DNA of 64,000 nucleotides from Flavobacterium sp. TR2. Lineage in GTDB: Bacteria > Bacteroidota > Bacteroidia > Flavobacteriales > Flavobacteriaceae. The notes beneath the pieces were generated by a model. That model was not told where the DNA came from. It worked only from the letters and a program-made list of their open reading frames with translations, and ran no database searches. Where the stretch lies: the NCBI RefSeq assembly GCF_025252405.1, contig NZ_CP104307.1:3410001-3474000 (forward strand), given 5' to 3'. Below are positions 4,127-20,782 of the stretch, in pieces. The translations under genes and the position numbers were made by a program. Position 1 is the first letter of the stretch; the number at the start of each line of letters is the position of its first letter.

Positions 4127-4395
4127 GCACAAATGTAATGCCTTTGACACTTATAATTCGTTGCTGTAATATTTAGAATAAAACTTAGAATTTCCAAAAA
4201 AATTAAAGAACCGTGTTAACTTTTTGCGGTAAAAAAAATTACTAGTTCCAATAATGATTCAGGTCATTTTTGAGATTGATGTACATCATTTTTTCCCCCC
4301 TATTCTTTAATCAATTTTGTTTTATCACAAACAGGAGGTTTGCTGTAGAGGTTTGATCTGCAGCACTGAATTAATTTTTTAAACTAAAAAGCGCC
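4127..4395. other. Intergenic region upstream of the BON pair
   Basis: It holds the outward promoter of RNA-like copy 2 on the left (-7 element TACATTTG on the minus strand at 4131-4138) and the double palindromic operator and promoter of the first BON gene on the right (4255-4319). No open frame is seen. Confidence 0.6.
4255..4319 (+). promoter_or_regulatory. Tandem FNR-type operator and -7 element of the BON operon
   Basis: Two TGA-N6-TCA palindromes, TGATTCAGGTCA (4255-4266) and TGATGTACATCA (4277-4288, a perfect palindrome), have centres exactly 22 bp apart. The -7-like CAATTTTG at 4312-4319 is centred exactly 33 bp after the proximal operator. This puts the operator near -41 of the expected start site, as in class II Crp/FNR promoters. 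The same geometry recurs at six other promoters of the island. Confidence 0.75.
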
Positions 4396-5055
4396 ATGAA
4401 AAAGAATAATGACATTTTAAGAAAAGAAGTAAAAGAAGCCCTAAAATGGGAGCCTATTTTACATAGTACTGAAATTGATGTGCATGTCAACGAAGGTGCA
4501 GTTGATCTGGGAGGGACTGTAGATACCTATGCTCAGAAAAAGGAAGCGGAACATGTTGTTAAAAAAATTCCAGGGGTTAGGGATGTGGTTAATAATGTAA
4601 AAGTTGATTTGTTTACATCAGATATTAGAAGTGACAAGGAAATAACAGATTTAGTCATTAAAACCCTGAAGGAAAACTGGGCAGTCCCAAACCATAGATT
4701 GACAATTACGGTCAAAGACGGCTGGGTTACTCTTAAAGGAATACTGCATTGGAATTTCCAAAGAAAGGCAGCTGATGAAGCAATCCGCTATCTTAATGGA
4801 GTGAGGGGCGTTATTGATGAGATCAAAATAGAAGCTGAGATCAAAAATGAAATTGAGAAAGAAATTGTTGAAAAGGCGCTGCGGCACAGCTGGCTCTTAG
4901 ATGTCGATAATATCAAAGTCAGAGTAGATGGGAAAACAATCTTTTTGAGCGGAAATGTCGATTCGCTTTTCGAAAAAGAAGAAGCAGAGAGAATTGCCTG
5001 GAATACGCCCGGTGTCTGCTTTGTGGATAATGAGCTTTTGGTGGAGTTTAACTGA
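4396..5055 (+). CDS. Triple BON-domain stress protein (OsmY-like), paralogue 1
   Basis: 219 aa made of three BON domains (about 5-72, 78-146, 150-219), each with the glycine-containing pattern such as VDLGGTVDTYAQKKEAEHVVKKIPGV. No signal peptide is visible, unlike E. coli OsmY, so the protein is probably cytoplasmic. BON domains are thought to bind phospholipid or membranes during osmotic and other stress. The gene begins the first rightward unit of the island, 24 bp ahead of a second BON gene, behind a double FNR-type operator. A third paralogue is at 9761-10429. Confidence 0.93.
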   Translation: MKKNNDILRKEVKEALKWEPILHSTEIDVHVNEGAVDLGGTVDTYAQKKEAEHVVKKIPGVRDVVNNVKVDLFTSDIRSDKEITDLVIKTLKENWAVPNHRLTITVKDGWVTLKGILHWNFQRKAADEAIRYLNGVRGVIDEIKIEAEIKNEIEKEIVEKALRHSWLLDVDNIKVRVDGKTIFLSGNVDSLFEKEEAERIAWNTPGVCFVDNELLVEFN

Positions 5056-5079
5056 AATGGATAATCAAAATATAAAGTT

Positions 5080-5751
5080 ATGAAAAACAATGAAGCATTA
5101 CAGCAGGAAATACAGGAAGCAATGAAGTTCGAACCAATGCTTCATGCCGCCGAAATTGGTGTCGCTGTCAAAGAAGGCATTGTTACCCTTAACGGGACTG
5201 TAGATAACCTGATAAAGAAAACCGAGGCATTGCATGCTGCAAAAAAAATCAAAGGAGTGGCAGCAATTGTAGATGAAATTGAAGTGAAGCTTGACAATTC
5301 TCTGGTTGTTTCCGATCAGGATATTGCAGCAAAAATTGTAAAAAAGCTGAAAGAAAATCTAGTTGTCCCGCAAAATACAATTAGCCTTACCGTCGAGAAC
5401 GGAAATGTAACAGCAGAAGGAATTGTGCCTTGGAACTTTCAAAGAGAGACTGCTCTGGATATTATTAGAAACCAAGCAGGAGTAAGAGATGTTACAAATA
5501 ATATAAAATTAAAAAGGGAGCTTTATGATCAGGCTGAGAAGGAGATACTGGAAAAAGCGCTTCGCAGACATTGGGCTTTTGATATGGATGAAATAGACAT
5601 TCAGGTTGCTGGAGCAACCGTTCAGCTTTCAGGTACGGTGGGTTCCATTTTTCAAAAGGAAGAAGCTGAAAGGATTGCTTATAAGACTCCTGGAGTAATA
5701 AAAGTTGTAAATCATTTGAAAGTAAATTTGGAACAGCCTTATTTATGTTAG
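5080..5751 (+). CDS. Triple BON-domain stress protein, paralogue 2
   Basis: 223 aa with the same three-BON layout as its upstream neighbour, for example ALHAAKKIKGVAAIVDEIEV in domain 1 and AERIAYKTPGVIKVVNHLKV in domain 3. It follows paralogue 1 by 24 bp and is probably a tandem duplicate in one operon. No signal peptide. It is followed after 57 bp by the LOG gene, which may be part of the same transcript since I see no terminator between them. Confidence 0.93.
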   Translation: MKNNEALQQEIQEAMKFEPMLHAAEIGVAVKEGIVTLNGTVDNLIKKTEALHAAKKIKGVAAIVDEIEVKLDNSLVVSDQDIAAKIVKKLKENLVVPQNTISLTVENGNVTAEGIVPWNFQRETALDIIRNQAGVRDVTNNIKLKRELYDQAEKEILEKALRRHWAFDMDEIDIQVAGATVQLSGTVGSIFQKEEAERIAYKTPGVIKVVNHLKVNLEQPYLC

Positions 5752-5808
5752 AATCGAAAAGACTTTAACAAGACAGCCAAATAATCTTCATAATTTAAAT
5801 TAAAGATT

Positions 5809-6504
5809 ATGATCAATCAAAAAGAAAAGGCGGAAATTAAGTTTTTGGAAGGCCCACAGTCAAGATTAACGGAGCTGAAATTTATTGTTTCAACTTTGCT
5901 GGAACTGGTAAGATGTTTTAGCAAGCTTCGTTCAATTGGCCCCTGCATCACTTTTTTCGGATCGGCACGTTTTAGAGAAGGCCATCCTTACTACGAATTT
6001 GCCAGAGAGGCGGCTGGCGAGTATGCCAAACTTGGATTTACCATTATGACCGGCGGCGGTCCGGGTTTAATGGAAGCCGCAAATCGTGGAGCCAGAGAAG
6101 CTGGCGGAAAATCCGTTGGATGCAACATTAAGCTTCCCATTGATCAGAGCCCAAATTCTTACCTTGATAAATGGGTAGAGGCAAAGCATTTTTTTGTACG
6201 CAAGATACTTTTGGTCAAGTATTCCTTTGCCTTTATTGTAATGCCGGGAGGTATTGGGACTCTAGATGAATTTTTTGAATCCTTGACACTAATTCAGACA
6301 GGCAAAATCAGAAATTTTCCCATCATCATATTCAATACCCAATACCATAAGCAGCTAGTTGAGCACATCAATTCATTGAAAGAAAAGGGAACTATAAATG
6401 AAGCTGACTTAAAGCTTTTTATTGTAACGGACGATATTGAGCAGGCAAGACTTTTTATTATTGAAGATAGCATCAAGCGCTACGGACTTAAACCAAAATT
6501 TTAG
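5809..6504 (+). CDS. LOG-family Rossmann-fold protein (nucleoside 5'-monophosphate phosphoribohydrolase)
   Basis: 231 aa. Family signatures are clear: GGGPGLMEAANRGAREAGG near residue 85 and MPGGIGTLDEFFE near 145, the PGGxGTxxE motif of LOG/TIGR00730 proteins. LOG enzymes split nucleoside monophosphates such as cytokinin riboside 5'-monophosphate or AMP into base and ribose 5-phosphate. In bacteria outside plant associations the substrate is often AMP or unknown. The N-terminal ~35 residues extend beyond the core. It lies in the stress island behind the BON genes, ends close to a convergent lipoprotein gene, and acts in the cytoplasm. Confidence 0.92.
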   Translation: MINQKEKAEIKFLEGPQSRLTELKFIVSTLLELVRCFSKLRSIGPCITFFGSARFREGHPYYEFAREAAGEYAKLGFTIMTGGGPGLMEAANRGAREAGGKSVGCNIKLPIDQSPNSYLDKWVEAKHFFVRKILLVKYSFAFIVMPGGIGTLDEFFESLTLIQTGKIRNFPIIIFNTQYHKQLVEHINSLKEKGTINEADLKLFIVTDDIEQARLFIIEDSIKRYGLKPKF

Positions 6505-6556
6505 GTTAATAGCCAGGAATGTTTCAGTACGTTATAACTTCGGCATATTAGAAAAA

Positions 6557-7195
6557 TTATTTCTTCAGATTTTTGATCACTTTTTTTGCAAACATATCCT
6601 GTATTATCAGTCTCCCATATTGATGCGCAAGACTTGAAATACTTAAAGGATTAAAGGATTCTGTACGAACAGAATAGACCAGGTTTTGATCAGGCACACT
6701 ATATAAATTGCTTTCCCAAAAATATGAGGTATCATTTATATAATAGCCTTCGTCATAAATTTTACTATAAATAGCTGCATAGTATGGATAAAAACGGTTG
6801 TAACTGTATTGATCTGCAATGCCATACATAGTGGCAGGGACATGATATTTTTCTTTGTCACGGCTAAGCAGGACAATAGTCAACACCGCATCTGCACCAG
6901 CCTGCTGCAGTTTTTTTAAGATCAGTTTTTCATCCGTGATATTAGAAGCGCTTAAATCAAAAAGATCAGTAGAGCACATGGCATTATACCCCAGATTGCA
7001 TAAATCATCGGCTAAATGATTTTCCATTTTTTTCTGCAGCTCATAATCCGATTCTTTTGCCAAAGCAGCCACTATAATTTTTTCTTTTTCAAGGTTTACC
7101 TTCTTTGGTGATACATAAGAGCTAGTGATCCTGCTGCTTGAACACTGAATCAATATAAGGGAGGAAAATGCAATAATGTATGGAGCTGCTTTCAT
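6557..7195 (-). CDS. Lipoprotein of unknown function, candidate FNR-type regulon member
   Basis: 212 aa with the start placed at the internal Met at 7195. This gives a proper lipoprotein signal MKAAPYIIAFSSLILIQCSS with the lipidated Cys at residue 18. A start at 7273 would add 26 residues and run over the promoter and operator (7220-7262), so it is rejected. The mature part has alpha/beta character (EKIIVAALAKES, GADAVLTIVLLSR) and resembles periplasmic nucleotide-like stress lipoproteins, but I assign no family. It is convergent with the LOG gene. A single TGA-N6-TCA operator sits 56 bp above the start. Confidence 0.8.
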   Translation of the reverse strand: MKAAPYIIAFSSLILIQCSSSRITSSYVSPKKVNLEKEKIIVAALAKESDYELQKKMENHLADDLCNLGYNAMCSTDLFDLSASNITDEKLILKKLQQAGADAVLTIVLLSRDKEKYHVPATMYGIADQYSYNRFYPYYAAIYSKIYDEGYYINDTSYFWESNLYSVPDQNLVYSVRTESFNPLSISSLAHQYGRLIIQDMFAKKVIKNLKK

Positions 7196-7219
7196 AAGAA
7201 TGAATATTAAAATACAAAG

Positions 7220-7262
7220 TAAAGTTATTGATATCCCAAAAAATGAAATATGACCCAGATCA
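7220..7262 (-). promoter_or_regulatory. FNR-type operator and -7 element of the lipoprotein gene
   Basis: The operator TGACCCAGATCA is at 7251-7262 and the -7-like TAACTTTA (minus strand) at 7220-7227. Their centres are exactly 33 bp apart, the spacing shared by all the operators of this island. Only one palindrome is present here. Confidence 0.68.
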
Positions 7263-7445
7263 TTTTTAAGCATCCATTTCTTTTAATCTGCTTGAAGTTA
7301 AAAAGGCTTTTTGATATTGGTTATCAGCCTGCAGCAGCATATCGCATTACCAGCTGTTGTTTAGTCCTCAATGGATCTAGAACAACGTTTTGGGAAAAAT
7401 AATAAATGATTAAAAAATAAATCCAACATTTTAAATCAATAAAGT

Positions 7446-7886
7446 ATGAAAACAAAATTGAGCATAATGGGATTGATAGCAGCACTGATGTATTGCTGTC
7501 AGGAAAAAATAGATATAAATTCTGCCGAAGATGAAATCAGTGAGGATTCGATTCAGACAGCGAGTATTGAACAGCAGACCCTTAGAAAATGGTTTTCCTT
7601 CAATAGAGAAGCTGACAGTTTAATTTCAGCGGCAGAAACAGCTATTGAATTTGAGACTGATCACCATGAGATGATCGGGAAGACTAAAAATAATGTTTTA
7701 ATTGCTAGCTACCATCTGGGAGAATTCAAGAAGAAAGTTAAGTATATAAAAGAGTATGCGGCCAATACGGATCATTTTGACAAAGGCGTACACCATACAT
7801 TAGACTCTTTAAGGGTTGATTATCTCAATGAAAAAATAAAACTCGAAGCAGCTCTGTGCGAATTTAATACTTATGAAGTGCCGTAA
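7446..7886 (+). CDS. Small lipoprotein, paralogue of the one at 21769
   Basis: 146 aa. The signal MKTKLSIMGLIAALMYCC gives a lipidated Cys at 17 or 18. The mature part is helical with two conserved blocks shared with 21769-22209: a TLRKWFSFNREADSLI-like block near residue 50 and the C-terminal TLDSLRVDYLNEKIKLEAAL. No family is recognised. The two copies sit near the two ends of the island. A terminator follows at 7944-7980. Confidence 0.82.
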   Translation: MKTKLSIMGLIAALMYCCQEKIDINSAEDEISEDSIQTASIEQQTLRKWFSFNREADSLISAAETAIEFETDHHEMIGKTKNNVLIASYHLGEFKKKVKYIKEYAANTDHFDKGVHHTLDSLRVDYLNEKIKLEAALCEFNTYEVP

Positions 7887-7943
7887 AATTTGATAACGGC
7901 CAGCCTTAACCAATTAAAATTTAGGAATAACTAATTCCCAAAA

Positions 7944-7980
7944 AGAAGCAGGCCATCAATACTAATGGTCTGCTTTTTTT
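7944..7980. terminator. Bidirectional terminator between the lipoprotein and the Usp gene
   Basis: AGCAGGCCAT and ATGGTCTGCT form a 10-bp stem with one G-T pair around an eight-base loop, followed by seven T on the plus strand and preceded by an A-run for the minus strand. It serves the convergent ends of the lipoprotein gene (7886) and the Usp gene (7979). Confidence 0.8.
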
Positions 7981-8812
7981 ATTCTTTTCTGTAAACAAGC
8001 ATTGGCGTCCTGGTATCAAATCCTTTTTCGGCTGTTTTAACAGATTGCAGGAGCTGTTCAAACCAAGTGCGGTCTTCTTTTGCAAACATAACGACGATAG
8101 AAGGTTTGGTGCTTATGATATCAATTTGAAGATTCCTGAATAAAGATTTTTCTGGAGAAAGTTTTTTAAAATTAAAACTGATTTTATCGTTCTGAAATTT
8201 GTGCTCAATGTCATGCAGTTTATTTTTGATCTCCTGTTCATTGGTAAAATAATCATAGTGATAGACAGAGATTTCGGCGTCAAATAATGCTCCAAACTTC
8301 TTAACCAGATGAATTTCATGAGAAAAATTCTCCACATCCGAAGGGTAGAGGATCGATTTTAAAGGTTTGACGCGGTAATGTCGGGGCACTACAAAAATTG
8401 GAACCGGCGATTCACTTAAAATTCTTGATGCATGGCTGCCCAGCAGTTTATTGATTAATCCGCCCCCACGGGTGCCAATACATATGTAATCTGCTTTAAC
8501 CTTCACGGCGCATTCTATTATTGCGGTGCTGATATCAAGTCTGTTTTCGACGATAAAGTTTATTTTTTCCGGAATTTTTCCGGTTTGTCTATATAGCGTG
8601 TTTACAAATTTCACAAGTTCTTTTTGCTGTATTTTAGTGTCGGCCGCAGGTATATCAACAAATGTTGCCCCAGCAAACGGATCTATTATATAGGCGGAAT
8701 CCACATGGTAAAAAAACAGTTCGCAAGGAGTCTGAGACGCAAGCTGTATGGCAAAACGCAAGGCTGTCTTTGAATTAATGGATAAGTCTGTTGTCACAAG
8801 TATTTTTTTCAT
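7979..8812 (-). CDS. Universal stress protein (tandem UspA)
   Basis: 277 aa, start at 8812 (MKKILVTTDLSIN); a longer frame from 8872 only adds 20 residues that overlap the upstream gene. The first Usp domain (about 1-143) carries the ATP-binding pattern G-2x-G-9x-G-S as GTRGGGLINKLLGSHAS (G113, G116, G126, S127). The second, degenerate domain (about 150-277) lacks it. Usp proteins bind ATP and help survival in growth arrest, low oxygen and other stresses. It is the last gene of a leftward run that starts at the YflT-type gene at 10993. Confidence 0.92.
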   Translation of the reverse strand: MKKILVTTDLSINSKTALRFAIQLASQTPCELFFYHVDSAYIIDPFAGATFVDIPAADTKIQQKELVKFVNTLYRQTGKIPEKINFIVENRLDISTAIIECAVKVKADYICIGTRGGGLINKLLGSHASRILSESPVPIFVVPRHYRVKPLKSILYPSDVENFSHEIHLVKKFGALFDAEISVYHYDYFTNEQEIKNKLHDIEHKFQNDKISFNFKKLSPEKSLFRNLQIDIISTKPSIVVMFAKEDRTWFEQLLQSVKTAEKGFDTRTPMLVYRKE

Positions 8813-8864
8813 GGCTATAAAATTTAAGATAAAAAAAGTAAGTGAGTTGGCAAAAGACAGGTAA

Positions 8865-9356
8865 TTAGTCAACTGTGTTTTGCGAATGAAATTTCATTTC
8901 GTTTACATAGATTTCATTTTTTTTCCATTCTTTGGTGTTGATAGCTGCTGTATCTATATCGGTAATCCAGTCAAAGGCAGGAAATAATCTAGTGCGGTTT
9001 ACGATCCGTTTTTTGTATCCAAAAGAAAAACGATCGCCTCTCATTTGGAATTCTATAGTTTTTCTGGGAGCGTTTATGTTCTGATACAGAATGTTTTGTG
9101 TTTTCCAATCTCCGCTCCATGTCAGGAATGCGTTAATAAAACATAACACTCCGACAATAAATACAGTGGAAAATATTGATATTGAAGTTTTTAGCTTACC
9201 CAAAAAACGACCTATTATAAAAACCAAAGAAAGAGCAGAGGCATAAAAAATAATAAAATGCACAATTGAATTATTGATGTATAGTTCAGTATAGCGGTTT
9301 AATAGTATCAAAGCGCTCGTACTTAAGAAAATAATATAAATTATGGCTTTTTTCAT
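8865..9356 (-). CDS. Unknown membrane protein in the stress island
   Basis: 163 aa with three hydrophobic segments (about 3-20, 31-50, 57-78) followed by a soluble C-terminal half rich in Arg/Lys and aromatic residues. I do not recognise the family. It lies 52 bp upstream of the Usp gene and 48 bp behind a 53-aa membrane protein, all leftward, which suggests a shared transcript and a membrane role in the same response. Confidence 0.72.
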   Translation of the reverse strand: MKKAIIYIIFLSTSALILLNRYTELYINNSIVHFIIFYASALSLVFIIGRFLGKLKTSISIFSTVFIVGVLCFINAFLTWSGDWKTQNILYQNINAPRKTIEFQMRGDRFSFGYKKRIVNRTRLFPAFDWITDIDTAAINTKEWKKNEIYVNEMKFHSQNTVD

Positions 9357-9404
9357 GTATTTAATATTTTAATTTGTAATAAGCGGCTCTGCTAATTAAT
9401 TTTG

Positions 9405-9566
9405 TTATAAATCATGAACTTCTGATTCCTCTTCGTAAGGATATAAGGGCCTGTTTAAATCTTCTTCGTACTTTTTTTTGTCTTTTGCGTTTTGGATGAA
9501 CACAAAAATCAGGACTGCTAATACTATCAATACTGAGAAGGTTAAAATAATCCAGCTTGGTTCCAT
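9405..9566 (-). CDS. 53-aa single-span membrane protein
   Basis: A short frame beginning MEPSWIILTFSVLIVLAVLI and ending EEESEVHDL. It has one transmembrane helix (about 5-24), a Lys-rich stretch NAKDKKK just inside, and a very acidic C-terminus. The composition (N-out hydrophobic helix, positive then acidic tail) looks like a genuine small membrane protein, in topology reminiscent of CcoS-type assembly factors, but without sequence evidence for that role. It sits between the BON gene and the three-span membrane gene, in the same direction. Confidence 0.68.
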   Translation of the reverse strand: MEPSWIILTFSVLIVLAVLIFVFIQNAKDKKKYEEDLNRPLYPYEEESEVHDL

Positions 9567-9628
9567 GTCATTAGAATTTTAAATTTTATTATTTCTCAGA
9601 TATGATTCAATCCAATATTGCAGGTGTC

Positions 9629-9671
9629 AAAATTTGCAGAGCCGAAAAAAAACTACTTCTGATTGAGATTA
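9629..9671 (-). promoter_or_regulatory. Weak candidate FNR-type site above the small membrane gene
   Basis: TGATTGAGATTA (9660-9671) differs from TGA-N6-TCA at one position, and CAAATTTT on the minus strand (9629-9636) is centred exactly 33 bp away, the spacing seen at the strong sites. Both parts are weaker than at the other promoters, so this may be chance or a low-affinity internal promoter. Confidence 0.3.
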
Positions 9672-9760
9672 CGTTTTTATCGATTTTCTTTTGGATCAGA
9701 TTTTTCAGAATTGTTTTGCGGTACTTTAACTGTTATAATTACAATAAGATTTTTCTCTGA

Positions 9761-10429
9761 CTAGATAACAGTTGCATATTTTTGCTCCACAACTAGCTGG
9801 TTGTCAACTGACCAGACACCAGGTGTTTTCCAAGCAGTCTTTTCGGCGAGGTCTTTCTGATACAATGACGAAACGGCACCTGTTAAAATAACTTTTGTGC
9901 CATCTACACGAACCAGGATTTCTTGGGAATGAAGTGTCCAGTTGCTTTTTAAAGCCCTTTCAACATCTTTTTTCTCAATTTGATCCTGTATTTCAGATTT
10001 GATTTTGATCTGATTATTAATTCCTTTGACTCCCGGCAGATAGGCAATTGCTTTTTCGGCTGCTTCTTTTTGATAGTTCCAAGTGAGATGTCCTTCAAGA
10101 GTAATCCATCCGTCTTCTACTTTTACCTTTAATTTTTCGTTTGGAACTGACCAGCAGTCGATTAAGGCTTTAATCACATCATTAGCGATATCGGTGTCCG
10201 ATTTCTGGCTGTTGGAATATCTTACATTAATTTCTTCAACAATTGCTTTCACGCCATCTACATTTTTAGCGGCATTTTCCGCTTCGATTTTCTTGAAATA
10301 AGCATCAACCGTTCCCATAAGCGTTACAATGCCATCTTTTGCTGTTACCCCAATTTCCGCAGCATGAAGCTGCGGTTCCCATTTGATGGCATTCTGCACA
10401 TCTCTCTGCAATTCTTCATTTGTTTTCAT
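9761..10429 (-). CDS. Triple BON-domain stress protein, paralogue 3
   Basis: 222 aa with three BON domains like the pair at 4396-5751; for example MGTVDAYFKKIEAENAAKNV in domain 1 and AEKTAWKTPGVWSVDNQLVV in domain 3. No signal peptide. It lies 51 bp downstream of the YflT-type gene in the same direction, so it is probably expressed from the promoter at 11069-11133. Confidence 0.93.
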   Translation of the reverse strand: MKTNEELQRDVQNAIKWEPQLHAAEIGVTAKDGIVTLMGTVDAYFKKIEAENAAKNVDGVKAIVEEINVRYSNSQKSDTDIANDVIKALIDCWSVPNEKLKVKVEDGWITLEGHLTWNYQKEAAEKAIAYLPGVKGINNQIKIKSEIQDQIEKKDVERALKSNWTLHSQEILVRVDGTKVILTGAVSSLYQKDLAEKTAWKTPGVWSVDNQLVVEQKYATVI

Positions 10430-10480: not shown

Positions 10481-10993
10481 TCAATTTTCCAGCAGTACCT
10501 GATTTTCTTTCTCAGAAAGAGAATTCTCTTTAGGAATATGCACATGGAGAACTGACTGCATTTTTTCAATGTTAGCGGCAGATTCTTCTGCGCAAAGCAT
10601 AAACTTATGAGCTCTGATTTCTGTTTTGTATTCAATGGTCTTGTCTTTTGAAAACGAGATGATAATCAGTGGAATCGCGGCCGAAATTAATACAGCGATA
10701 CAGGCATAGATTATTGGCATTTTTACCATAGGCAGGCTTGCTCCCAGATTAAAGAAGAACAATGTGCCAAATATGACTGAAGTCAGTCCGACTGCAAACA
10801 GCCCTATGGAGCTCCATTTTTCCATTTGGTCATAAATACTGTAGTATCCCATGACATTCTGCTCGGTATAGCAGTCTGTTCCAATCAGTGATAATTTTGT
10901 AATATCGTATCCGTGTTTTTTAAGCTTTATAATGGCATCCTCAGCCTGCTGCTGGGTTTGAAAATGCGCTACAAACAATTTATGATTTTTCAT
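10481..10993 (-). CDS. General stress protein with YflT/17M-like domain and two membrane spans
   Basis: 170 aa. Residues 1-45 match the YflT (general stress protein 17M) ferredoxin-like domain, with QQAEDAIIKLKKHGYDITKL. Two hydrophobic hairpin segments follow (about 62-82 and 92-113), then a C-terminal part with EIRAHKFMLCAEESAANIEK that looks like a second copy of the fold. Such proteins occur in stress clusters of many phyla; biochemical function is unknown. It is the first gene of the leftward YflT-BON unit behind a tandem FNR-type operator. Confidence 0.85.
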   Translation of the reverse strand: MKNHKLFVAHFQTQQQAEDAIIKLKKHGYDITKLSLIGTDCYTEQNVMGYYSIYDQMEKWSSIGLFAVGLTSVIFGTLFFFNLGASLPMVKMPIIYACIAVLISAAIPLIIISFSKDKTIEYKTEIRAHKFMLCAEESAANIEKMQSVLHVHIPKENSLSEKENQVLLEN

Positions 10994-11068: not shown

Positions 11069-11133
11069 TAAAATTGCTTTAAAACTTAAAAAAAAGAAAT
11101 GACATTAATCATTATTAAAAATGATCTTGGTCA
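11069..11133 (-). promoter_or_regulatory. Tandem FNR-type operator and -7 element of the YflT-BON operon
   Basis: Palindromes TGACATTAATCA (11100-11111) and TGATCTTGGTCA (11122-11133) have centres 22 bp apart. The minus-strand CAATTTTA at 11069-11076 is centred exactly 33 bp beyond the proximal one. The arrangement matches that in front of the first BON gene and of hsp20. Confidence 0.72.
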
Positions 11134-11163: not shown

Positions 11164-11206
11164 TGATGATTGTCATGTAGTTTTTGCTGGATTATAGCTA
11201 ATTTAG
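11164..11206 (+). promoter_or_regulatory. FNR-type operator and -7 element of the OsmC-ATPase operon
   Basis: TGATGATTGTCA at 11164-11175, with TAATTTAG (one mismatch to TAnnTTTG) at 11199-11206; centres are exactly 33 bp apart. The divergent intergenic region therefore holds three palindromes, two for the leftward and one for the rightward promoter. Confidence 0.72.
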
Positions 11207-11283: not shown

Positions 11284-11721
11284 ATGGAAACTTCAGAGGA
11301 ATATCAAGTAGATCTTTACTGGAAAGAGGATCAAAATGCAGAGGTGAGTTCAATGCTTTTCAGCGATAAAATTGAGACAGCAGAACGATGGTGCCTCAGT
11401 CATTCTAAAAATGGCAAATGGACGGCAGAGCATCTTTTCATTGCTTCTATTTTAAGTTCATACATGACAGCATATTTAAGAACTGCTAAAAATAAAGGGA
11501 TTGATTATAAAGGTTTCAAAAGCACCGGCCGAGCATCTTTTACGATTTCAGACGAGGTTTCCGAAATAACAGATGTCCTGATAAGGCCGACGGTCGAAAT
11601 CATTAAAAGCAGCCAAATCAATAAAGCATTAAAAATTTTCTCATTGTGCAGAGAGCACAGTCTGGTGCTGAAAGCTTTAAAGATCAGGATACATATATTC
11701 CCTTCTGTTGTTTTGGGATAG
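11284..11721 (+). CDS. OsmC/Ohr-like protein lacking the first catalytic Cys
   Basis: 145 aa with the OsmC fold pattern: an N-terminal strand region, the central helix AEHLFIASILSSYMTAYL and the C-terminal helix with IFSLCREHS. OsmC/Ohr enzymes reduce organic hydroperoxides with two Cys. Here the position of the peroxidatic Cys in the central helix is Ser (about S59), while the second Cys is kept (C122). The protein may thus not be a standard peroxidase. The gene is followed after 84 bp by a P-type ATPase and is preceded by an FNR-type operator. Confidence 0.8.
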   Translation: METSEEYQVDLYWKEDQNAEVSSMLFSDKIETAERWCLSHSKNGKWTAEHLFIASILSSYMTAYLRTAKNKGIDYKGFKSTGRASFTISDEVSEITDVLIRPTVEIIKSSQINKALKIFSLCREHSLVLKALKIRIHIFPSVVLG

Positions 11722-11805: not shown

Positions 11806-14304
11806 ATGGATTTGAAAGAGAAGGAATTGACAGGGTTAAGTCTTGAAGAAGTTGCTGAGAGCAGAAAAAGGCATGGTCTGAACAAACTTGATTATAAGAA
11901 ACAGAACAAAGTTTATTTGTTTTTAAAAAGTATTTTTTCAGAACCGATGATTATTTTACTGCTTGTGGCCTCTGGAATCTATTACACCAATCAGCAGTAT
12001 AGTGATGCCATCTTCCTTTCGGTTTCCATCTTGCTTATTGCAGGAATATCGATTTATCAGGATAAAAGAAGCCGAAATGCCTTAAGAAAACTTCAAGAAT
12101 TTACACAACCGTCATATAAGGTTGTTCGTCAGGGAGAGCAGCAAAGGATACCTGTACAGGATATTGTTCTTGGGGATTTAATTATTATTGAAGAAGGAAG
12201 TTTAGTTCCGGCTGACGGTACTATAATGCGTTCAAATGATTTTTCTGTCGACGAATCTATATTAACGGGCGAATCTCTGGCTGTTTTCAAGAACTCGCAA
12301 ACAGATGACAATAAAGTATTTTCAGGAACCATAGTGGTAAGCGGACTGGCATTTGTAAAAGTAACAAATATTGGTCTCCAGACCAGATTAGGCCGAATAG
12401 GATCAAGCATTGAAACTATAAAAGAGGAAAAAACGCCTCTTGAAGCGCAGATTGGCAGTTTTGTAAAAAAGATGGTTCTTGTGGGAGCCATTGTATTTAT
12501 TTTGGTATGGATACTTAATTATTCAAAAATAGGCAGTCTAGAAAAAAGCTTATTGATGTCGCTTACTTTGGCGATGAGCATACTACCTGAGGAAATTCCG
12601 GTAGCTTTTACAGCTTTTATGGCGTTGGGAGCACAAAGAATGATGAAAAAAGGCATAGTGGTTAAACAAATGAAGACCGTTGAAACCCTCGGAAGTGCGA
12701 CAGTTATCTGTACAGACAAAACAGGGACAATCACCCAGAATAAAATGGAGCTTGCAAAGCTGTATCTCCCCTCTGGGGCAGAGATAACAGCGGAGGCTTT
12801 TTCAGAAACAGAAGCTTCGCGCAGCCTCATAAGAAATGCAATGTGGGCAAGCGAGCCCATTGCATTTGACCCGATGGAGGCCGCACTTCATAATGCATAT
12901 AAAAAAAGCACGGATCAAGATTGGCGGGCGGATTTTAAAATGGTCCATGAATATCCTTTGTCGGGCACTCCGCCAATGATGACCCATGTTTTTGAAAATA
13001 ATTCAGGCACCAGGATCATTGCGGCTAAAGGTGCGCCTGAAGGGATTTTGGGAGTCTGTAGCCTTTCATCACAGGAATACAAAAGAATTGTTGCAGCGCT
13101 TGATAAACTGACACTAAAAGGCTACAGAGTGCTTGGTGTCGCCAAGGGCGATCTGCAGGGATCTGATTATCCGGCAAATCAGCAGGAAATTTCATTTGCC
13201 TTCAAAGGCCTGATTGCTTTTTACGATCCTCCAAAAGATAATATTCGAGAAGTGCTTAAATCCTTTTATGATGCAGGCATTTCAGTCAAAATCATTACCG
13301 GGGACAATGCTGGAACGACAGCATCAATTGCGAAGCAAATCGAATTTAGGGGTTATGAAAAATCCATTACCGGTAAAGAACTTATGGAAATGAGCGATTC
13401 AGAGCTTCAAAGCAACGTTATGGATATTAATGTTTTCAGCCGGATGTTTCCAGATGCCAAATTACGTATTGTCAACGCTTTGAAAGCAAACGGACAGATT
13501 GTTGCAATGACCGGAGATGGCGTTAATGATGGACCGTCGCTCAAAGCGGCTCATATTGGGATTGCAATGGGGAAAAAAGGCACAGCCATAGCAAAAGAAG
13601 CTGCTTCCCTTATACTTGCTGAAGACGACCTTTCAAAAATGACAGAAGCTGTAGCAATGGGACGAAAAATTTATGTCAATCTAAAAAAAGCGATACGTTA
13701 TATCATATCGATACATATCCCTATTATAATGATTGTTTTTGTTCCGCTTGCTCTGGGATGGATCTATCCCAATATCTTAAATCCTATACACGTCATTCTG
13801 CTTGAACTCGTAATGGGGCCCACCTGTTCCATTTTATATGAAAACGAACCTGCTGAGGATAACATTATGCTAGAAAAGCCACGCTCGCCAAGAACAACTT
13901 TTTTTAAAGGCAAAGAGATTATAGGCAGTCTTATTCAGGGAATGATGATAACTGTGGGCGTACTGTTGATCTATCAATTGTCTGTAAAAATGAGTTTAGG
14001 TGAAAAATGTACCAGAAGCATGGTTTTTCTGGTTTTAATTACAGCCAATATCCTGCTCACCCTTGTCAACAGATCTTTTCAGCATTCATTATTTACCACA
14101 CTGAAGTATAAAAATCCGCTGGTGCCCGTTATAAGTGGCATAACAATATTGCTTGTCGTCCTGCTATTTACAATACCATTTTTGCGCTCTCTTTTTGATT
14201 TTGAAGTCATTTCATTTTTTCATGCTGGACTCTGCTTTGCTGTTGGAGCCTTGTCTGTTTTATGGTTTGAGGGAGTGAAGTATTTTAAAAACAGATTCAG
14301 TTAA
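11806..14304 (+). CDS. Cation-translocating P-type ATPase (P2 type)
   Basis: 832 aa, full length. Motifs in order: actuator LTGES (154-157), membrane motif SILPEEIPV (about 259-266) at the PEGLP position, phosphorylation site CTDKTGTIT (D304), and hinge MTGDGVNDGPSLKAAHIGIA. About ten membrane spans; the N-terminal cation-ATPase domain is at 8-60 (LSLEEVAESRKRHGLN). The PEEIPV variant and layout fit Ca2+ or related cation pumps of the P2 class, but the ion cannot be fixed from sequence. It follows the OsmC-like gene and shares its promoter. Its stop overlaps the end of the convergent nuclease gene by 4 bp. Confidence 0.94.
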   Translation: MDLKEKELTGLSLEEVAESRKRHGLNKLDYKKQNKVYLFLKSIFSEPMIILLLVASGIYYTNQQYSDAIFLSVSILLIAGISIYQDKRSRNALRKLQEFTQPSYKVVRQGEQQRIPVQDIVLGDLIIIEEGSLVPADGTIMRSNDFSVDESILTGESLAVFKNSQTDDNKVFSGTIVVSGLAFVKVTNIGLQTRLGRIGSSIETIKEEKTPLEAQIGSFVKKMVLVGAIVFILVWILNYSKIGSLEKSLLMSLTLAMSILPEEIPVAFTAFMALGAQRMMKKGIVVKQMKTVETLGSATVICTDKTGTITQNKMELAKLYLPSGAEITAEAFSETEASRSLIRNAMWASEPIAFDPMEAALHNAYKKSTDQDWRADFKMVHEYPLSGTPPMMTHVFENNSGTRIIAAKGAPEGILGVCSLSSQEYKRIVAALDKLTLKGYRVLGVAKGDLQGSDYPANQQEISFAFKGLIAFYDPPKDNIREVLKSFYDAGISVKIITGDNAGTTASIAKQIEFRGYEKSITGKELMEMSDSELQSNVMDINVFSRMFPDAKLRIVNALKANGQIVAMTGDGVNDGPSLKAAHIGIAMGKKGTAIAKEAASLILAEDDLSKMTEAVAMGRKIYVNLKKAIRYIISIHIPIIMIVFVPLALGWIYPNILNPIHVILLELVMGPTCSILYENEPAEDNIMLEKPRSPRTTFFKGKEIIGSLIQGMMITVGVLLIYQLSVKMSLGEKCTRSMVFLVLITANILLTLVNRSFQHSLFTTLKYKNPLVPVISGITILLVVLLFTIPFLRSLFDFEVISFFHAGLCFAVGALSVLWFEGVKYFKNRFS

Positions 14305-16556: not shown

Positions 16557-16559
16557 GAG

Positions 16560-17012
16560 TCAGTTAATTGCAATTTGCTGCACCGGTTTTTCGGGACTGC
16601 TTTTCTTTTTAGGAAGGGTCAGTTTTAGGACCCCGTTATTATATTTAGCATCGATTTTATCTTCTGCTATATTTTCAGGCAGTACAAAAGAGCGGCTGAA
16701 AGAGGTAAAGGAAAATTCTTTTTTTCTGAAATTTTTATCTTCCTGTTCAGATTCCTCTTCTTTCTGGGCACTGATGTTCAAAACGCCATTTTTTATTTCG
16801 GCCTTAAAGTCTTTGCTTGCAAGACCCGGCGCAGCAATCTCAATTTCAAAATCAGCATTGTTCTCGATGATGTTTGCCTGAGGGATCGATGACCCATTTT
16901 GATTTGCAAAGGCAAAAAAAGATGGAATATCAAGAAAACGATCGGTAAAAAAATCTTCAAAAATGCCCAGACCATTGCTGTTTTTCTTCTTTGTTGGAAC
17001 AAGTGTTGTCAT
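16560..17012 (-). CDS. Small heat-shock protein Hsp20 (alpha-crystallin family)
   Basis: 150 aa. An N-terminal flexible region (1-40) precedes the alpha-crystallin domain (about 45-140), with ENNADFEIEIAAPGL at its start and the strand NGVLKLTLPKK near its end. It should act as an ATP-independent holdase that keeps unfolding proteins soluble. It stands alone with its own terminator and a tandem FNR-type operator 43-107 bp upstream, so it is probably induced by the adjacent kinase/regulator pair as well as perhaps by heat. Confidence 0.95.
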   Translation of the reverse strand: MTTLVPTKKKNSNGLGIFEDFFTDRFLDIPSFFAFANQNGSSIPQANIIENNADFEIEIAAPGLASKDFKAEIKNGVLNISAQKEEESEQEDKNFRKKEFSFTSFSRSFVLPENIAEDKIDAKYNNGVLKLTLPKKKSSPEKPVQQIAIN

Positions 17013-17054
17013 GGTGTAAAAAAATTTAAGTTAAACATTCTGAAATGAATTACT

Positions 17055-17119
17055 CAAAAATACAAAGTATTGGCAGTCTGAAGAATGAGGAAAATCACTG
17101 CATTAAATGATCCCGATCA
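17055..17119 (-). promoter_or_regulatory. Tandem FNR-type operator and -7 element of hsp20
   Basis: TGAGGAAAATCA (17086-17097) and TGATCCCGATCA (17108-17119) are centred 22 bp apart. The -7 element TATTTTTG (minus strand, 17055-17062, perfect TAnnTTTG) is centred exactly 33 bp beyond the proximal operator. This is the clearest instance because both the -7 element and the distal operator are near ideal. Confidence 0.78.
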
Positions 17120-17129
17120 TAATTGAAAC

Positions 17130-18179
17130 TCAGTTTTTGATTTTGCTGAGTTTTTCCAGATTAAGAATACGGATTGTGCCTGAAGTTTTTTCAATTAATC
17201 CCTCTTCCTTAAAATCACTTAAAGTTCGGCTTACCGTTTCAGGAGAGGTCCCTGAGAAAGCGGCCAGATCATCTCGGCTGAATTTGATTGTAGAGCCATC
17301 ATTACCGTGCTGCTGCAATAATTGGACTATCGCTTGCGCAATTCTTTTTCTGACCGACATATAGGCAATCTGCAGCAGGCGGGATTCCTTGTCCTTCATA
17401 TCATTGGAAAGGATCTTGATAAATTTAGTGCCTACATCCGGATAGAGAAACAGCAGCTTGTCGAGCTGTTCAATAGGAAGAAAGCTGAGTTCTGTTTCCT
17501 CCAGGGTGATTGTAGTGTCCTTATACGTATCATTTGAAAATAATACACTGATGTCCAGATAATCATTTTCTTTATAAATGCCAGTAATAAGCTCACGTCC
17601 TTCTTCTGTAAGCTTCACCGTTTTAACTTTTCCGCTTATGATGTAATATATGCCTGTAACACGATCACCTTCATAATGTATATACTGGTTTTTTTTATAC
17701 TTTCTGGAACTCCTTTCAAGCATAATTTCCTTAAGTTTAGAGAGTCCGTCTTCTTTTGAAATTATTGCATCGAGGTTCTCAGGGGTCTGTCCGAAAAATA
17801 GCTGGTATGCCTCTTTCTTTTTGAGCCGGGCTTCTATTGCTTTGAGAAGTTCCAGATCGTCGAAGGGTTTGGTAAGGTAGTCGTCAACGCCAAATTCCAT
17901 ACCTTTTCGAAGGTCGGCCCTTTCTGCTTTAGCGGTTAAAAAGATGATAGGAATTGCTAATGTCTGTGGATTTTTATGCAGAATGTGCACTACGCCGTAA
18001 CCATCTAGTTCTGGCATCATGATATCACATAAGACTATATCAGGAATGGTTTTGAGGGCCAATTCAACTCCTTTTTTTCCATTTTCAGCTGAAAAAACCT
18101 CATATCCTGAAAGTTCCAGTATTTCGACAACATTTTCTCTAATATTGTCATTGTCTTCAATAATAAGCACTTTATTCAT
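17130..18179 (-). CDS. Response regulator with receiver fused to a Crp/Fnr DNA-binding module
   Basis: 349 aa. Residues 1-120 are a receiver domain with phospho-acceptor D52 (LCDIMMPELDG) and the conserved YLTKPF. Residues about 155-260 are a cyclic-nucleotide-type beta-roll (IYYIISGKVK). The rest is a Crp helix-turn-helix with recognition helix SPETVSRTL. The E314-x-x-S317-R318 pattern is that of E. coli FNR, which reads TGAT half-sites. No FNR-type Fe-S Cys cluster is seen, so phosphorylation probably replaces oxygen sensing in this protein. It acts as FixJ and FixK in one chain. The start overlaps the kinase stop by 4 bp. Candidate targets are the TGA-N6-TCA sites across the island. Confidence 0.93.
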   Translation of the reverse strand: MNKVLIIEDNDNIRENVVEILELSGYEVFSAENGKKGVELALKTIPDIVLCDIMMPELDGYGVVHILHKNPQTLAIPIIFLTAKAERADLRKGMEFGVDDYLTKPFDDLELLKAIEARLKKKEAYQLFFGQTPENLDAIISKEDGLSKLKEIMLERSSRKYKKNQYIHYEGDRVTGIYYIISGKVKTVKLTEEGRELITGIYKENDYLDISVLFSNDTYKDTTITLEETELSFLPIEQLDKLLFLYPDVGTKFIKILSNDMKDKESRLLQIAYMSVRKRIAQAIVQLLQQHGNDGSTIKFSRDDLAAFSGTSPETVSRTLSDFKEEGLIEKTSGTIRILNLEKLSKIKN

Positions 18180-19363
18180 AAACGTGGCAGTTCAATGGTA
18201 AACAAGGTTCCTTTATCAATGGCACTTTTAAAAGATATTGAGCCATTCATAATTTTTACGTAACGAGAAACTATATGCAGTCCTAAACCGGTGCCGGGAA
18301 TATTTCCTGTGTTGTGGGCTCTGAAAAAGGCTTCAAACAAATGTTCATGATCTTCTTGTGGTATGCCGATGCCGTTATCTTTAACATTGATGGTTATCTT
18401 ATTTTTGTCAATGGTCGTCCAGATTTCAATTTCTGTTTCCTCGCCTGAATATTTTATAGCATTGGAGACCAGATTGATGATGCAGTTTTTAAGAAGGTTC
18501 TTATCGAGTTTTACAAGCGTGATTTCGTTATTAGGTCTGCTAAGTATTTTCTGTTTCTTTTTGGTAAGAAGCTTGAGTTCTCCCAATAATTCTTTAATAA
18601 AGACCTGAATATCGAAACACGAAATCTGCAATGTTATTTTATTGGCTTCTGCTTTTTCAAGAAGAAGAAAATCATCCAGTATAACAGTCAGATTGGCAAC
18701 TGCACTTTTGATTTTCAGCAGATGGGCGTCAATCTTTGGGCTGTCCAGTCCTTCGGCATAGCGCTGCATCAATGAGGAGGAAAGCTGGATGGTGCTCAAT
18801 GGAGTCCTAAATTCATGTGAGGCCATTGATAAAAGCCTGCTTTTTATCTGATGCAGTTCTTTTTCTTTCTCCAGAGTAGTGCTTACTTCTTCTTTGGCAT
18901 TTGTTAGAGCCTCTATAGTTTCGTTCAATGTGATGGTGCGGTCCTTTACAAGCTCTTCCAGATGCTGCGTGTACTGCATCAGACGGTTTTCTGCTTCTTT
19001 CTGATGGCTTAGATCATGTATAAAACCTGCAAAAATTCTAGTGTCCTCAAATTTGACTTCACTCACTCCAAGTCGGAAAGGAAATATATTGCCGTCTTTT
19101 TTTCGTCCAAGGACATCTCTTCCATGACCAATAATATGTGGTACTCCCGAAGACTTGTAGCTTTCCAGATAAGAATCATGCTTCTCACGGTCTGGTGAAG
19201 GCATTAGAATGGAGATGTTTTTTCCGATAACATCTTCAGGTTCATATAAAAAAAGCCGGCATGCTGAAGGATTTATCGACTCCACAATACCGTTATCATT
19301 AATTGTAATGATCCCGTCGATTGCATTTTCAATTATAGCATTTAAAAGCGCCTGGTTTTTCAT
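18176..19363 (-). CDS. FixL-like haem-PAS sensor histidine kinase
   Basis: 395 aa, no membrane span. Residues 1-125 form one PAS domain closely matching the oxygen-sensing PAS of FixL: ILMPSPDREKHDSYL contains H62 at the position of the haem ligand (His200 of Bradyrhizobium FixL), and PHIIGHGR keeps the equivalents of His214 and Arg220 (H76, R82). The Arg206 equivalent is Ser. Then come a coiled coil (130-175), the H-box SHEFRTPLS with H183, and an ATPase domain with NLVSNAIKYS, DNGIGIP and GTGLGLHIV. It should phosphorylate the regulator whose gene overlaps its end. Haem oxygen sensing is inferred from these residues, not shown. Confidence 0.92.
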   Translation of the reverse strand: MKNQALLNAIIENAIDGIITINDNGIVESINPSACRLFLYEPEDVIGKNISILMPSPDREKHDSYLESYKSSGVPHIIGHGRDVLGRKKDGNIFPFRLGVSEVKFEDTRIFAGFIHDLSHQKEAENRLMQYTQHLEELVKDRTITLNETIEALTNAKEEVSTTLEKEKELHQIKSRLLSMASHEFRTPLSTIQLSSSLMQRYAEGLDSPKIDAHLLKIKSAVANLTVILDDFLLLEKAEANKITLQISCFDIQVFIKELLGELKLLTKKKQKILSRPNNEITLVKLDKNLLKNCIINLVSNAIKYSGEETEIEIWTTIDKNKITINVKDNGIGIPQEDHEHLFEAFFRAHNTGNIPGTGLGLHIVSRYVKIMNGSISFKSAIDKGTLFTIELPRL

Positions 19364-19621
19364 TTGCCATTGGAATTACACACTAACAAATATCGTCAAA
19401 TGTTTTTGAAAATCAATGATGTAAGCTCTGAAAATATTAGAAAATGCTAGCTTTTTTTTGGGGAATTTTTGCGCGTTTTTTAAAGTCGATTCTCCACTGT
19501 CGGGCAAGTTTATTACGTCATCCTGAAATAGGGTAAATGTATATCTTTTATAAGGCAGTAAAAAGATGAATATTTTTCTATACAGAATAAATGAAGTAAA
19601 TGCAAGGGGACAGCATGAGTA
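19364..19621. other. Intergenic region between the kinase and the PEP-synthase-like gene
   Basis: No open frame, tRNA or FNR-type palindrome is visible. The kinase therefore does not appear to be under the same operator as its putative regulon, at least not within this interval. Confidence 0.4.
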
Positions 19622-20611
19622 CTAAATAATGTAGAGTTCACCGCTTAGGCCGTCTTTTGCCCACTCGAAATCAACGGGTCTTTGATAATAGTCTTCGATT
19701 ATGACAGCCCATCTTGCCAGATACTCAATTTCTTGGTCTTCCAATACAAATCTTTCGGTACATTTTCTTGGCGTTATTTTCATTACAGTAGAGTTGATGC
19801 CAGAAGCATTTTCATTAGATACTAGGATTTTGCTTTTACTGCCAAGTTTTTTTTGCAGTATCGCTATCTTATTGTTTTTAAGAGAATTTTTAAGTACAAT
19901 AAATTCATCAGGAGCAACTGTTCCTTCTGTTATAGTTTCACCTAATCCCCATGTTCCGGCAATGTGCACCATTCCAGGTAAGGCTGACTCGGATTCAAGT
20001 GTAAAACCAGTTCCAGAGCAGCCAAGATCAGAGCGCACCATTTTCTGTATTCCGACAGAAAGAAATACTTTGTTGTGATCAAAACATTTATTCTGTCTGT
20101 GTTTAATTGCCCTATCTGTATAGAGCGAGGCAAAGCAGCACTTTACGGCATATACCAATGGAACAATGCCTTTTATGTTGAGAAAGGAATCATGGAGTCC
20201 GGAAAAATTGTCTGTAAAGTTGTTTTCTGCCGAAGGACTGCTTCTTACGACCACCACAATCTCTCTTTTTTTATTATTCGACAAGCAATTGTAAGCAGTT
20301 GCTATGCTTGTTTCAAGATCCAGCGGAAATCTGCCCTCAAGGATCAGCTTACGTGCTTTAGACCCTATTTCGGTTAAATTGGAAAATTCAGCAGTTTCCA
20401 ATTTGGACATAAGTTCCTGTAGCGGGCTGCGGAGCTTATTATATTCTATAAAGTACTTATATGCTTTTGCTGTAATTGCAAATCCATTCGGAATCCGTAC
20501 CCCTTTAGAAGCAAGGTTATTGTACATCTCTCCCAAAGTGGCATTTTTTCGTCCAACTTTATTTATATTATAAATGCCTATTTCGTTAAATTTTAAAATC
20601 AGTTCTTCCAT
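19622..20611 (-). CDS. Stand-alone PEP synthase/PPDK N-terminal ATP-binding domain
   Basis: 329 aa, against about 790 for complete PEP synthase. It covers only the ATP-grasp domain, with VVVRSSPSAEN (the RSS loop), GTWGLGETITEG and DFEWAKDGLSGELYI. It stops precisely where the full enzyme continues into the phospho-His domain, and the downstream sequence has no continuation. It cannot make PEP alone; it may phosphorylate a partner carried elsewhere or have become regulatory. Similar truncated proteins are annotated in stress clusters of other phyla. It has its own FNR-type operator 76 bp upstream. Confidence 0.85.
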   Translation of the reverse strand: MEELILKFNEIGIYNINKVGRKNATLGEMYNNLASKGVRIPNGFAITAKAYKYFIEYNKLRSPLQELMSKLETAEFSNLTEIGSKARKLILEGRFPLDLETSIATAYNCLSNNKKREIVVVVRSSPSAENNFTDNFSGLHDSFLNIKGIVPLVYAVKCCFASLYTDRAIKHRQNKCFDHNKVFLSVGIQKMVRSDLGCSGTGFTLESESALPGMVHIAGTWGLGETITEGTVAPDEFIVLKNSLKNNKIAILQKKLGSKSKILVSNENASGINSTVMKITPRKCTERFVLEDQEIEYLARWAVIIEDYYQRPVDFEWAKDGLSGELYII

Positions 20612-20655
20612 TTTTTTGTCGAATCAATCTGCAACTTGTGTTGGTTATAATGATC

Positions 20656-20698
20656 TAAAAGTATGACATTACAGCCCAGCCTAAAATGATATGGATCA
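20656..20698 (-). promoter_or_regulatory. FNR-type operator and -7 element of the PEP-synthase-like gene
   Basis: TGATATGGATCA at 20687-20698, with TACTTTTA on the minus strand at 20656-20663 (one mismatch to TAnnTTTG). Centres are exactly 33 bp apart. Confidence 0.7.
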
Positions 20699-20739
20699 TA
20701 GTCCTAATTTATACGTTATGTTACGAGAATTCAGTTTTG

Positions 20740-20782
20740 TGATGAAGGTCATTTTTGCGTACTGGTTTATTGATGAAATTTG
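20740..20782 (+). promoter_or_regulatory. FNR-type operator and -7 element of dinD
   Basis: TGATGAAGGTCA at 20740-20751, with GAAATTTG (one mismatch to TAnnTTTG) at 20775-20782; centres exactly 33 bp apart. It forms a divergent pair with the promoter at 20656-20698. Confidence 0.66.

Follow-up and report, generated by a model that had tools for sequence, protein, structure and literature searches.

The window, a stretch of 64,000 nucleotides from Flavobacterium sp. TR2 (contig NZ_CP104307.1, positions 3,410,001 to 3,474,000), contains an island of genes around a regulator that joins a receiver domain to a CRP-type DNA-binding part (referred to below as the fusion) and a FixL-like histidine kinase. 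Seven promoters of this island carry a TGA-N6-TCA palindrome, centred at 4282.5, 7256.5, 11105.5, 11169.5, 17091.5, 20692.5 and 20745.5, and each centre lies 33.0 bp from the centre of a TAnnTTTG-like octamer, with 23 nt between the two elements. At three of the seven, the promoters of a BON gene, of the 10481 gene and of hsp20, a second palindrome (starting at 4255, 11122 and 17108) lies 22 bp further upstream. A preliminary description made from the sequence had reported both spacings, and they were confirmed to the base, as were all seven octamers at their positions.

Features of the regulator island

The sites, octamers and genes are listed below in order of position, with the -41.5 and -63.5 positions as predicted in the next section.

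4255..4266, plus strand: upstream palindrome of the BON promoter (predicted -63.5); pattern scan
4277..4288, plus strand: palindrome of the BON promoter (predicted -41.5); pattern scan, footprint in relatives
4312..4319, plus strand: -7 octamer CAATTTTG; position check
4396..5055, plus strand: protein with three BON domains; Pfam scan
5080-5751: related BON gene, next after 4396..5055; assigned by clustering
6557..7195, minus strand: putative lipoprotein without Pfam match; start placed at an inner ATG
7220..7227, minus strand: -7 octamer TAACTTTA; the likely start, 7195, lies 25 nt downstream
7251..7262, minus strand: palindrome of the putative lipoprotein promoter (predicted -41.5); outer bases kept in loci L033 and L034
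9761-10429, minus strand: BON gene, next after 10481..10993; assigned by clustering
10481..10993, minus strand: membrane protein (YflT in the preliminary description); ActD match below cut-off
11069..11076, minus strand: -7 octamer CAATTTTA; position check
11100..11111, minus strand: palindrome of the 10481 gene (predicted -41.5); position check, footprint
11122..11133, minus strand: upstream palindrome of the 10481 gene (predicted -63.5); pattern scan
11164..11175, plus strand: palindrome of the OsmC-like gene (predicted -41.5); position check, footprint
11199..11206, plus strand: -7 octamer TAATTTAG; position check, footprint
11284..11721, plus strand: OsmC-like protein; domain scan
11806-14304, plus strand: P-type ATPase gene, next after OsmC; DKTGT motif seen by eye
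16560..17012, minus strand: Hsp20; domain scan
17055..17062, minus strand: -7 octamer TATTTTTG, matching 6/6; position check
17086..17097, minus strand: palindrome of the hsp20 promoter (predicted -41.5); position check, footprint
17108..17119, minus strand: upstream palindrome of the hsp20 promoter (predicted -63.5); pattern scan, footprint
17130..18179, minus strand: regulator with receiver domain, cNMP-binding-type domain and Crp helix-turn-helix; domain scan
18176..19363, minus strand: FixL-like PAS histidine kinase; domain scan, comparison with solved structures
19622..20611, minus strand: PPDK_N, ATP-binding part only; domain scan
20656..20663, minus strand: -7 octamer TACTTTTA; position check
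20687..20698, minus strand: palindrome of the PPDK_N gene (predicted -41.5); position check, footprint
20740..20751, plus strand: palindrome of the Bro-N gene (predicted -41.5); position check, footprint
20775..20782, plus strand: -7 octamer GAAATTTG; position check
20852..21706, plus strand: Bro-N domain protein (dinD in the preliminary description); domain scan

Only the hsp20 octamer matches the consensus at 6/6 positions, the remaining window octamers matching at 4-5 of 6. We considered that the site at 7251 might be spurious and lie inside a coding region; this was rejected, as the gene can start internally, at 7195, and two close relatives preserve the site. The PPDK_N gene encodes 329 amino acids, its relative in L034 encodes 802, and the ATP-binding part alone remains in the window. 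Two small exported proteins with similar N-termini (7446-7886, which has no Pfam match, and 21769-22209) flank the island.

Promoter position and spacing statistics

The sigma-A octamer of F. psychrophilum lies at -12 to -5 relative to published start sites, according to PMC9723704. A palindrome 33 bp above the octamer centre would therefore occupy the class II position, -41.5, and the second palindrome -63.5; in Flavobacterium sp. TR2 both positions are predicted by analogy with the F. psychrophilum octamer. A palindrome at a fixed distance from a core promoter element, here 33 bp from the -7 octamer, is the arrangement of class II promoters of the CRP/FNR type.

Over the window as a whole, TGA-N6-TCA is no more frequent than expected (23 sites against 26.2). 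When these 23 sites are taken in both orientations (46 in total), octamers matching at least 5/6 occur six times at the 33-bp spacing, the mean being 0.67 per spacing and the next best spacing having three; with the threshold at 4/6, the 33-bp spacing is unexceptional in the window (8; best spacing 10, mean 3.86). The window taken alone provides moderate evidence for the 33-bp spacing. In the whole genome of this strain, 16 of the 76 matches to TGATN4RTCA..ANNTTTR over 21 spacings fall at 33 bp, five of them within the window and 11 outside it, where other spacings average 2.95 (Poisson P of 2.5e-4 outside the window and 6e-10 for the window). Exact 22-bp pairs occur three times in the 5.1-Mb genome, every one in the window; allowing one mismatch adds nine places, which is no excess over a reversed control pattern (nine).

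A conserved promoter arrangement in regulator-bearing loci

We compared 80 loci (1.49 Mb, mainly Flavobacterium and Mucilaginibacter) that were chosen by homology to the regulator, irrespective of motif. In these loci TGA-N6-TCA leads the 64 dyads of its shape in intergenic enrichment, with a ratio of 7.9 (next dyad 2.55) based on 531 occurrences in 242,577 intergenic versus 321 in 1,250,368 coding positions. Intergenic palindromes most often lie 22 bp apart (87 pairs; next distance 8), and exact 22-bp tandems number 89 for this dyad and 7 for the next. Octamers matching at least 5/6 are found in 127/574 cases at 33 bp and in 134/574 at 55 bp, the other spacings having 0-14 save three with 23, 22 and 17. 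The consensus is approximately AAAA(g)TGAY-N4-RTCA(y)TTTT-N10-TGA-N6-TCAT-N23-TAnnTTTG, and A or G is commoner than T just before the TGA of the sites. The preliminary description had held that the fixed spacing could hardly be chance and had named a genome-wide scan as its check; both the excess outside the window and the strong peaks in the 80 loci uphold this.

The quality of the octamer varies with the arrangement. Among promoters with a site at 55 bp, 34 of 134 have merely a decayed site at 33 bp, and for promoters preselected at octamer matches of at least 5/6, perfect octamers (6/6) occur in 58/100 with both sites, in 11/34 with a decayed 33-bp site and in 8/54 with the 33-bp site alone. 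The earlier remark that all octamers but that of hsp20 deviate from consensus, as expected for activator-dependent promoters, is accurate for the window; as a general rule for weak octamers it finds a mixed picture across relatives, and it suits single-site promoters better than tandems because of these proportions.

In a further 20 loci (L191-L210) from 20 other families, the dyad ratio is 5.9 (next 2.1), 22-bp pairs number 29 (next 5), and octamers lie at 33 bp in 47/221; the tandem had already been seen in every genome that these loci come from, and their 22-bp pairs thus add no independent evidence.

The window promoters were also compared with those of homologous genes, with rows from the strain's own genome excluded and, among the matches listed, only alignments starting within 25 residues considered. 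In the regulator-chosen loci, both palindromes, the spacing and the 6/6 octamer of hsp20 are kept in 4/4, and the site, spacing and 5/6 octamer of the Bro-N gene in 7/7. The PPDK_N arrangement is kept in 10/11, the odd one having an octamer of 3/6, and that of OsmC in 3/6. For the 10481 gene the arrangement is kept in 6/6 relatives of at least 60% identity (octamer 4/6; second palindrome exact in one) and in 1/7 at 39-41% identity. Both BON relatives of at least 52% identity (2/2) keep a single palindrome, and the 22 less similar BON genes among the matches listed have no site, save one misplaced. Loci L124-L153 were fetched for holding the tandem and are counted apart, being partly circular; they add 8/8 for hsp20, 4/4 for BON and 1/1 each for the 10481 gene and OsmC. 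The outer bases of the lipoprotein site are kept in the 2/2 nearest relatives (L033, L034), and a search of 130 nt found the site in 0/4 relatives at 53-56% identity. Across relatives, TGA, TCA and the spacing are constant, while the six central bases differ and the start codon lies at varying distances.

The regulator and its kinase

The regulator combines the cNMP_binding fold and HTH_Crp of the CRP/FNR family with a two-component receiver, which carries the phospho-acceptor Asp52, conserved in 80/80 loci, and has a partner kinase. Its gene overlaps the upstream kinase gene by 4 nt, and its three nearest homologues, 91-95% identical, are all from Flavobacterium. In the 70 loci listed of the 80, the sequence of the recognition helix is ETVSR or ETISR; in an alignment of 24 fusions, many distant members carry an E..IR helix. 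FNR carries cysteines for an Fe-S cluster; the fusion holds a single cysteine and so has no four-cysteine Fe-S motif, which sets it apart from FNR. It also differs from FixJ, whose output domain is of the LuxR/NarL type, in having a CRP-type output, and from FixK, a stand-alone CRP/FNR protein without a receiver, in having a receiver domain.

The best solved relatives of the kinase PAS domain are the heme PAS domains of FixL (E 6e-28). Like FixL, the kinase consists of a FixL-related PAS domain, HisKA and HATPase; H62 aligns with the FixL heme histidine, and the equivalent of Arg220 is kept. A kinase homologue is present in 75/80 loci and lies directly upstream of the regulator gene in 73/80, the sole kinase match of L106 and L111 lying elsewhere and not beside the regulator; the aligned heme histidine is kept in 71/75 loci with a kinase match. 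In L191-L210, a PAS match was found in 18/20, mostly at 27-34% identity, with the heme histidine in 18/18.

The kinases of L042 and L043 (F. beibuense and F. rakeshii; at about 8808-9992) have Tyr in place of the heme histidine and Lys at the place of FixL Arg220; the predicted heme site has been lost naturally in both.

Distribution of tandem and single sites

The fusion was found in 30/199 Flavobacterium genomes, and the tandem followed by ANNTTT in 17/199 (reversed control in 1/199, by eye). The tandem is present in 15/30 fusion-bearing versus 2/169 fusion-free genomes (Fisher 1e-12), and the fusion-bearing genomes have 33/39 of their tandem matches no more than 20 kb from a fusion gene (by eye). 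Across the class Bacteroidia, the fusion was found in 192/395 genomes and the tandem in 216/395 (control in 2, by eye); 148/192 fusion-bearing genomes have the tandem versus 68/203 others (Fisher 1e-18; 608 versus 154 matches), with the limit that the fusion search scored five candidates per genome and missed some regulators, several of which a second look found. The tandem-pattern matches on contigs C1 and C3 of G513 resemble repeat arrays and not promoters.

The single-site arrangement is distributed differently. TGAYN4RTCA at 33 bp from a perfect octamer gave 1287 matches in 194/199 Flavobacterium genomes (some 33 for the control, in 30 genomes, counted by eye), equally frequent without the fusion (mean 6.47, n=169) and with it (6.47, n=30; P 0.91). 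An FNR-like protein near ccoN was found in 179/199 genomes. Where it was not found, single-site matches are rarer (2.3, n=20, versus 6.93, n=179), although this comparison is not normalised for genome size and the 20 genomes average just about 2.7 Mb. This protein is a candidate owner of the genus-wide single-site class. The genome of strain TR2 encodes both the fusion and the FNR-like protein, and outside the window the promoter of a ccoN-like gene (locus L119) and that of a Usp-like gene (names by reading) share the arrangement seen here. In this genome the FNR-like protein has an N-terminal CxxC (G000:C1:2848085-2848765) and lies near the ccoN-like gene, which starts from C1:2851665. Palindrome centres have 41-44% G+C in 31 tandem promoters versus 16% in the 31 first-listed single-site ones (P 5e-5), and three of the four single-site centres in the window have 50-75% (by eye). 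The sites thus likely fall into two classes that share half-sites and position, as judged from these sequences.

The 33-bp pair was therefore rejected as a signature of the fusion alone, being genus-wide and equally frequent without it. The 22-bp tandem points to the fusion more specifically, though less strictly across the class. Some genus-wide single sites in L154-L183 precede genes that we read as hemN-, truncated hemoglobin- and nitrite reductase-like, and further ones precede genes resembling cytochrome c and a nitrate-type transporter.

Genes behind the promoters

We collected 384 promoters from 101 sources, of which 356 have an open reading frame (ORF) and 28, without an ORF of 70 amino acids nearby, were left out. 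The window is counted in the tally, as are loci that are near-identical or paralogous. Pfam was run on ten representatives, one of which had no match and the radical-SAM one a match below cut-off; the YceI, CcoN and hemN names are our own reading.

Usp, 41 promoters
2-hydroxyacid dehydrogenase, 39 promoters, 38 tandem
FixL-like kinase, 33 promoters, 25 tandem
COX1 (CcoN-like) oxidase, 19 promoters, 6 tandem
Uncharacterised membrane protein of 114 amino acids without Pfam match (e.g. L050:14171, minus strand), 18 promoters/loci
BON, 12 promoters
PPDK, 11 promoters, all single
Scaffold-domain protein, 10 promoters
Pyridox_ox_2, 10481 family, and Bro-N (all single), 9 promoters each
hsp20, 8 promoters
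Alcohol dehydrogenase and YceI-like, 7 promoters each
P-type ATPase, 6 promoters
OsmC (all single), radical-SAM/hemN-like, and acetate kinase, 5 promoters each
AcetylCoA_hydro, 4 promoters
XFP, 2 promoters

The remaining promoters precede other genes, uncharacterised families among them. Many of the families in this list are known for roles in low oxygen, fermentation or survival. Promoters precede the kinase in 32 loci, which implies positive feedback. In the window, the stretch separating the kinase start from the PPDK_N stop contains no TGA-N6-TCA; transcription from the PPDK_N promoter may extend into the kinase gene.

Interpretation and alternative explanations

We consider it likely that the palindromes are sites for dimers of the fusion, in a class II position with a frequent second dimer, under a signal from the FixL-like kinase and in front of genes for oxygen limitation and survival. 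A dimer of the fusion would bind at -41.5 and activate the sigma-A polymerase class II-style at the TAnnTTTG promoter, and at many targets a second dimer would bind at -63.5, on the same DNA face and 22 bp, some two helical turns, further upstream. Like FixL, which is a heme-binding kinase inhibited by oxygen, the neighbouring kinase probably binds heme, would be active at low oxygen and would phosphorylate the receiver domain, such that the FixL-FixJ-FixK cascade would be shortened to FixL and one FixJ/FixK-like fusion, with oxygen-limitation and survival genes as its targets. The low-oxygen idea of the preliminary description gains support from the kinase and from the target gene content. 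Its further claim, a class II regulon of the regulator at 17130, stands insofar as a set of CRP/FNR-type promoters lies in the regulator's island and the sites are kept in relatives; the 33-bp spacing by itself, however, is not diagnostic of this regulator.

Several observations weigh against this interpretation. In a harder test, with 20 loci from regulator-bearing genomes without an exact tandem, the TGA dyad ranks second (2.5; TAA 3.0) and 22-bp pairs number two, which lowered our confidence slightly, although the octamer peaks are still present (16/82 at 33 bp, 8/82 at 55 bp, median 0). Exact tandems are lacking in 15/30 fusion-bearing Flavobacterium and 44/192 fusion-bearing class genomes. 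Conversely, 68/203 class genomes without a detected fusion nonetheless carry the tandem; a second look at these 68 found one full-length fusion and five that are split, broken or at a contig end, and most others show just a stand-alone CRP-type protein, suggesting that another protein may use the tandem there. Several of 12 genomes with neither fusion nor tandem (hand-picked from 135) show a stand-alone CRP-type protein too. Four of the 75 kinase-bearing loci are without the aligned heme histidine, and the window kinase has Ser at the place of FixL Arg206. Since the single-site arrangement is common to fusion-free genomes, the four single-site window promoters could be those of the FNR-like protein.

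The stand-alone protein that most tandem-bearing genomes without a detected fusion (e.g. G225, G266 and G346) show matches the CRP part of the fusion, and the tandem may have predated or outlived the receiver domain.

It is distinctly unlikely that the FNR-like protein near ccoN (C1:2848085) owns the sites in place of the fusion, with the island forming part of a general anaerobic regulon. Such ownership would account for the single 33-bp sites that occur in nearly every genome regardless of the fusion, for their lower (not size-normalised) number where the FNR-like protein was not found, and for the ccoN-like and Usp-like promoters outside the window; the tandems, however, follow the fusion, whereas the FNR-like protein is nearly genus-wide, among the 15 fusion genomes with a tandem, G021 and G190 have no FNR-like match, and the centres differ in composition, most single-site centres of the window being G+C-rich. 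A division in which the fusion binds the tandems and G+C-rich centres and the FNR-like protein the AT-rich centres, with some cross-talk, is compatible with a fusion-bound tandem, and we give it about an even chance: half-sites and spacing are alike, centres are different and the strain holds both proteins, but the two samples comprise only 31 promoters each. The single-site promoters may belong to either of these two proteins.

Chance alignment in an AT-rich genome would be in keeping with the lack of dyad enrichment over the window and with 33 bp not being the best spacing at 4/6. Chance and base composition were rejected on the dyad, spacing and tandem counts in the 80 loci, together with the footprints, and we regard their probability as negligible. 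As to the signal, heme PAS domains can bind several ligands, and the missing Arg206 equivalent, together with Met, Leu or Ile at the Arg220 place in 12/18 of the L191-L210 kinases, would suit a kinase that senses nitric oxide, carbon monoxide or redox state. Such a non-oxygen signal appears rather unlikely, given a FixL-type PAS domain with the Arg220 equivalent in the window kinase and the low-oxygen target genes.

What the window shows belongs to a promoter architecture found across the class. We lean slightly towards a general model in which, in Bacteroidia, a FixL-type kinase would pass its signal straight to a CRP-type activator by way of the receiver fused to it, and phosphorylation would let two dimers join at a rigid pair of sites, -41.5 and -63.5. 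The outcome would be a low-oxygen and dormancy regulon that behaves like a switch, beside a conventional FNR-like regulon with the same half-sites and other centres. A search of titles and abstracts returned nothing on a receiver-CRP fusion or a 22-bp tandem in Bacteroidota, and oxygen regulation and activated transcription seem little mapped for this phylum in the literature searched. For such an architecture the present results name an activator and a sensor, give positions to the base and list candidate targets, and they caution that a CRP/FNR-type site at -41.5 is insufficient to assign a regulator in Bacteroidota.

Comparison with known systems

The closest parallel is the rhizobial FixL-FixJ-FixK cascade, for which PMC4999443 quotes the activator consensus TTGANCNNGATCAANG and which shares a FixL-type PAS kinase, a CRP/FNR-type activator and oxidase genes among the targets. 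Unlike in that cascade, receiver and CRP parts are here in one protein with no separate FixJ step, the sites read TGAY-N4-RTCA, and the 22-bp tandem stands at TAnnTTTG promoters.

Class II and class I+II tandem promoters of E. coli CRP/FNR likewise have a dimer at -41.5 and an upstream dimer on the same face; the TAnnTTTG promoter, the fixed -41.5/-63.5 pair repeated over the class and a receiver-bearing activator are particular to the arrangement predicted here. The mycobacterial DosR dormancy regulon resembles it in having a heme kinase, a response regulator and Hsp20, Usp and P-type ATPase targets, but DosR is of the NarL type with other sites, and its output domain is unrelated to that of the fusion. 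With E. coli FNR the half-sites and promoter position are shared; the fusion, however, is without the four-cysteine Fe-S motif, and sensing would sit in the kinase.

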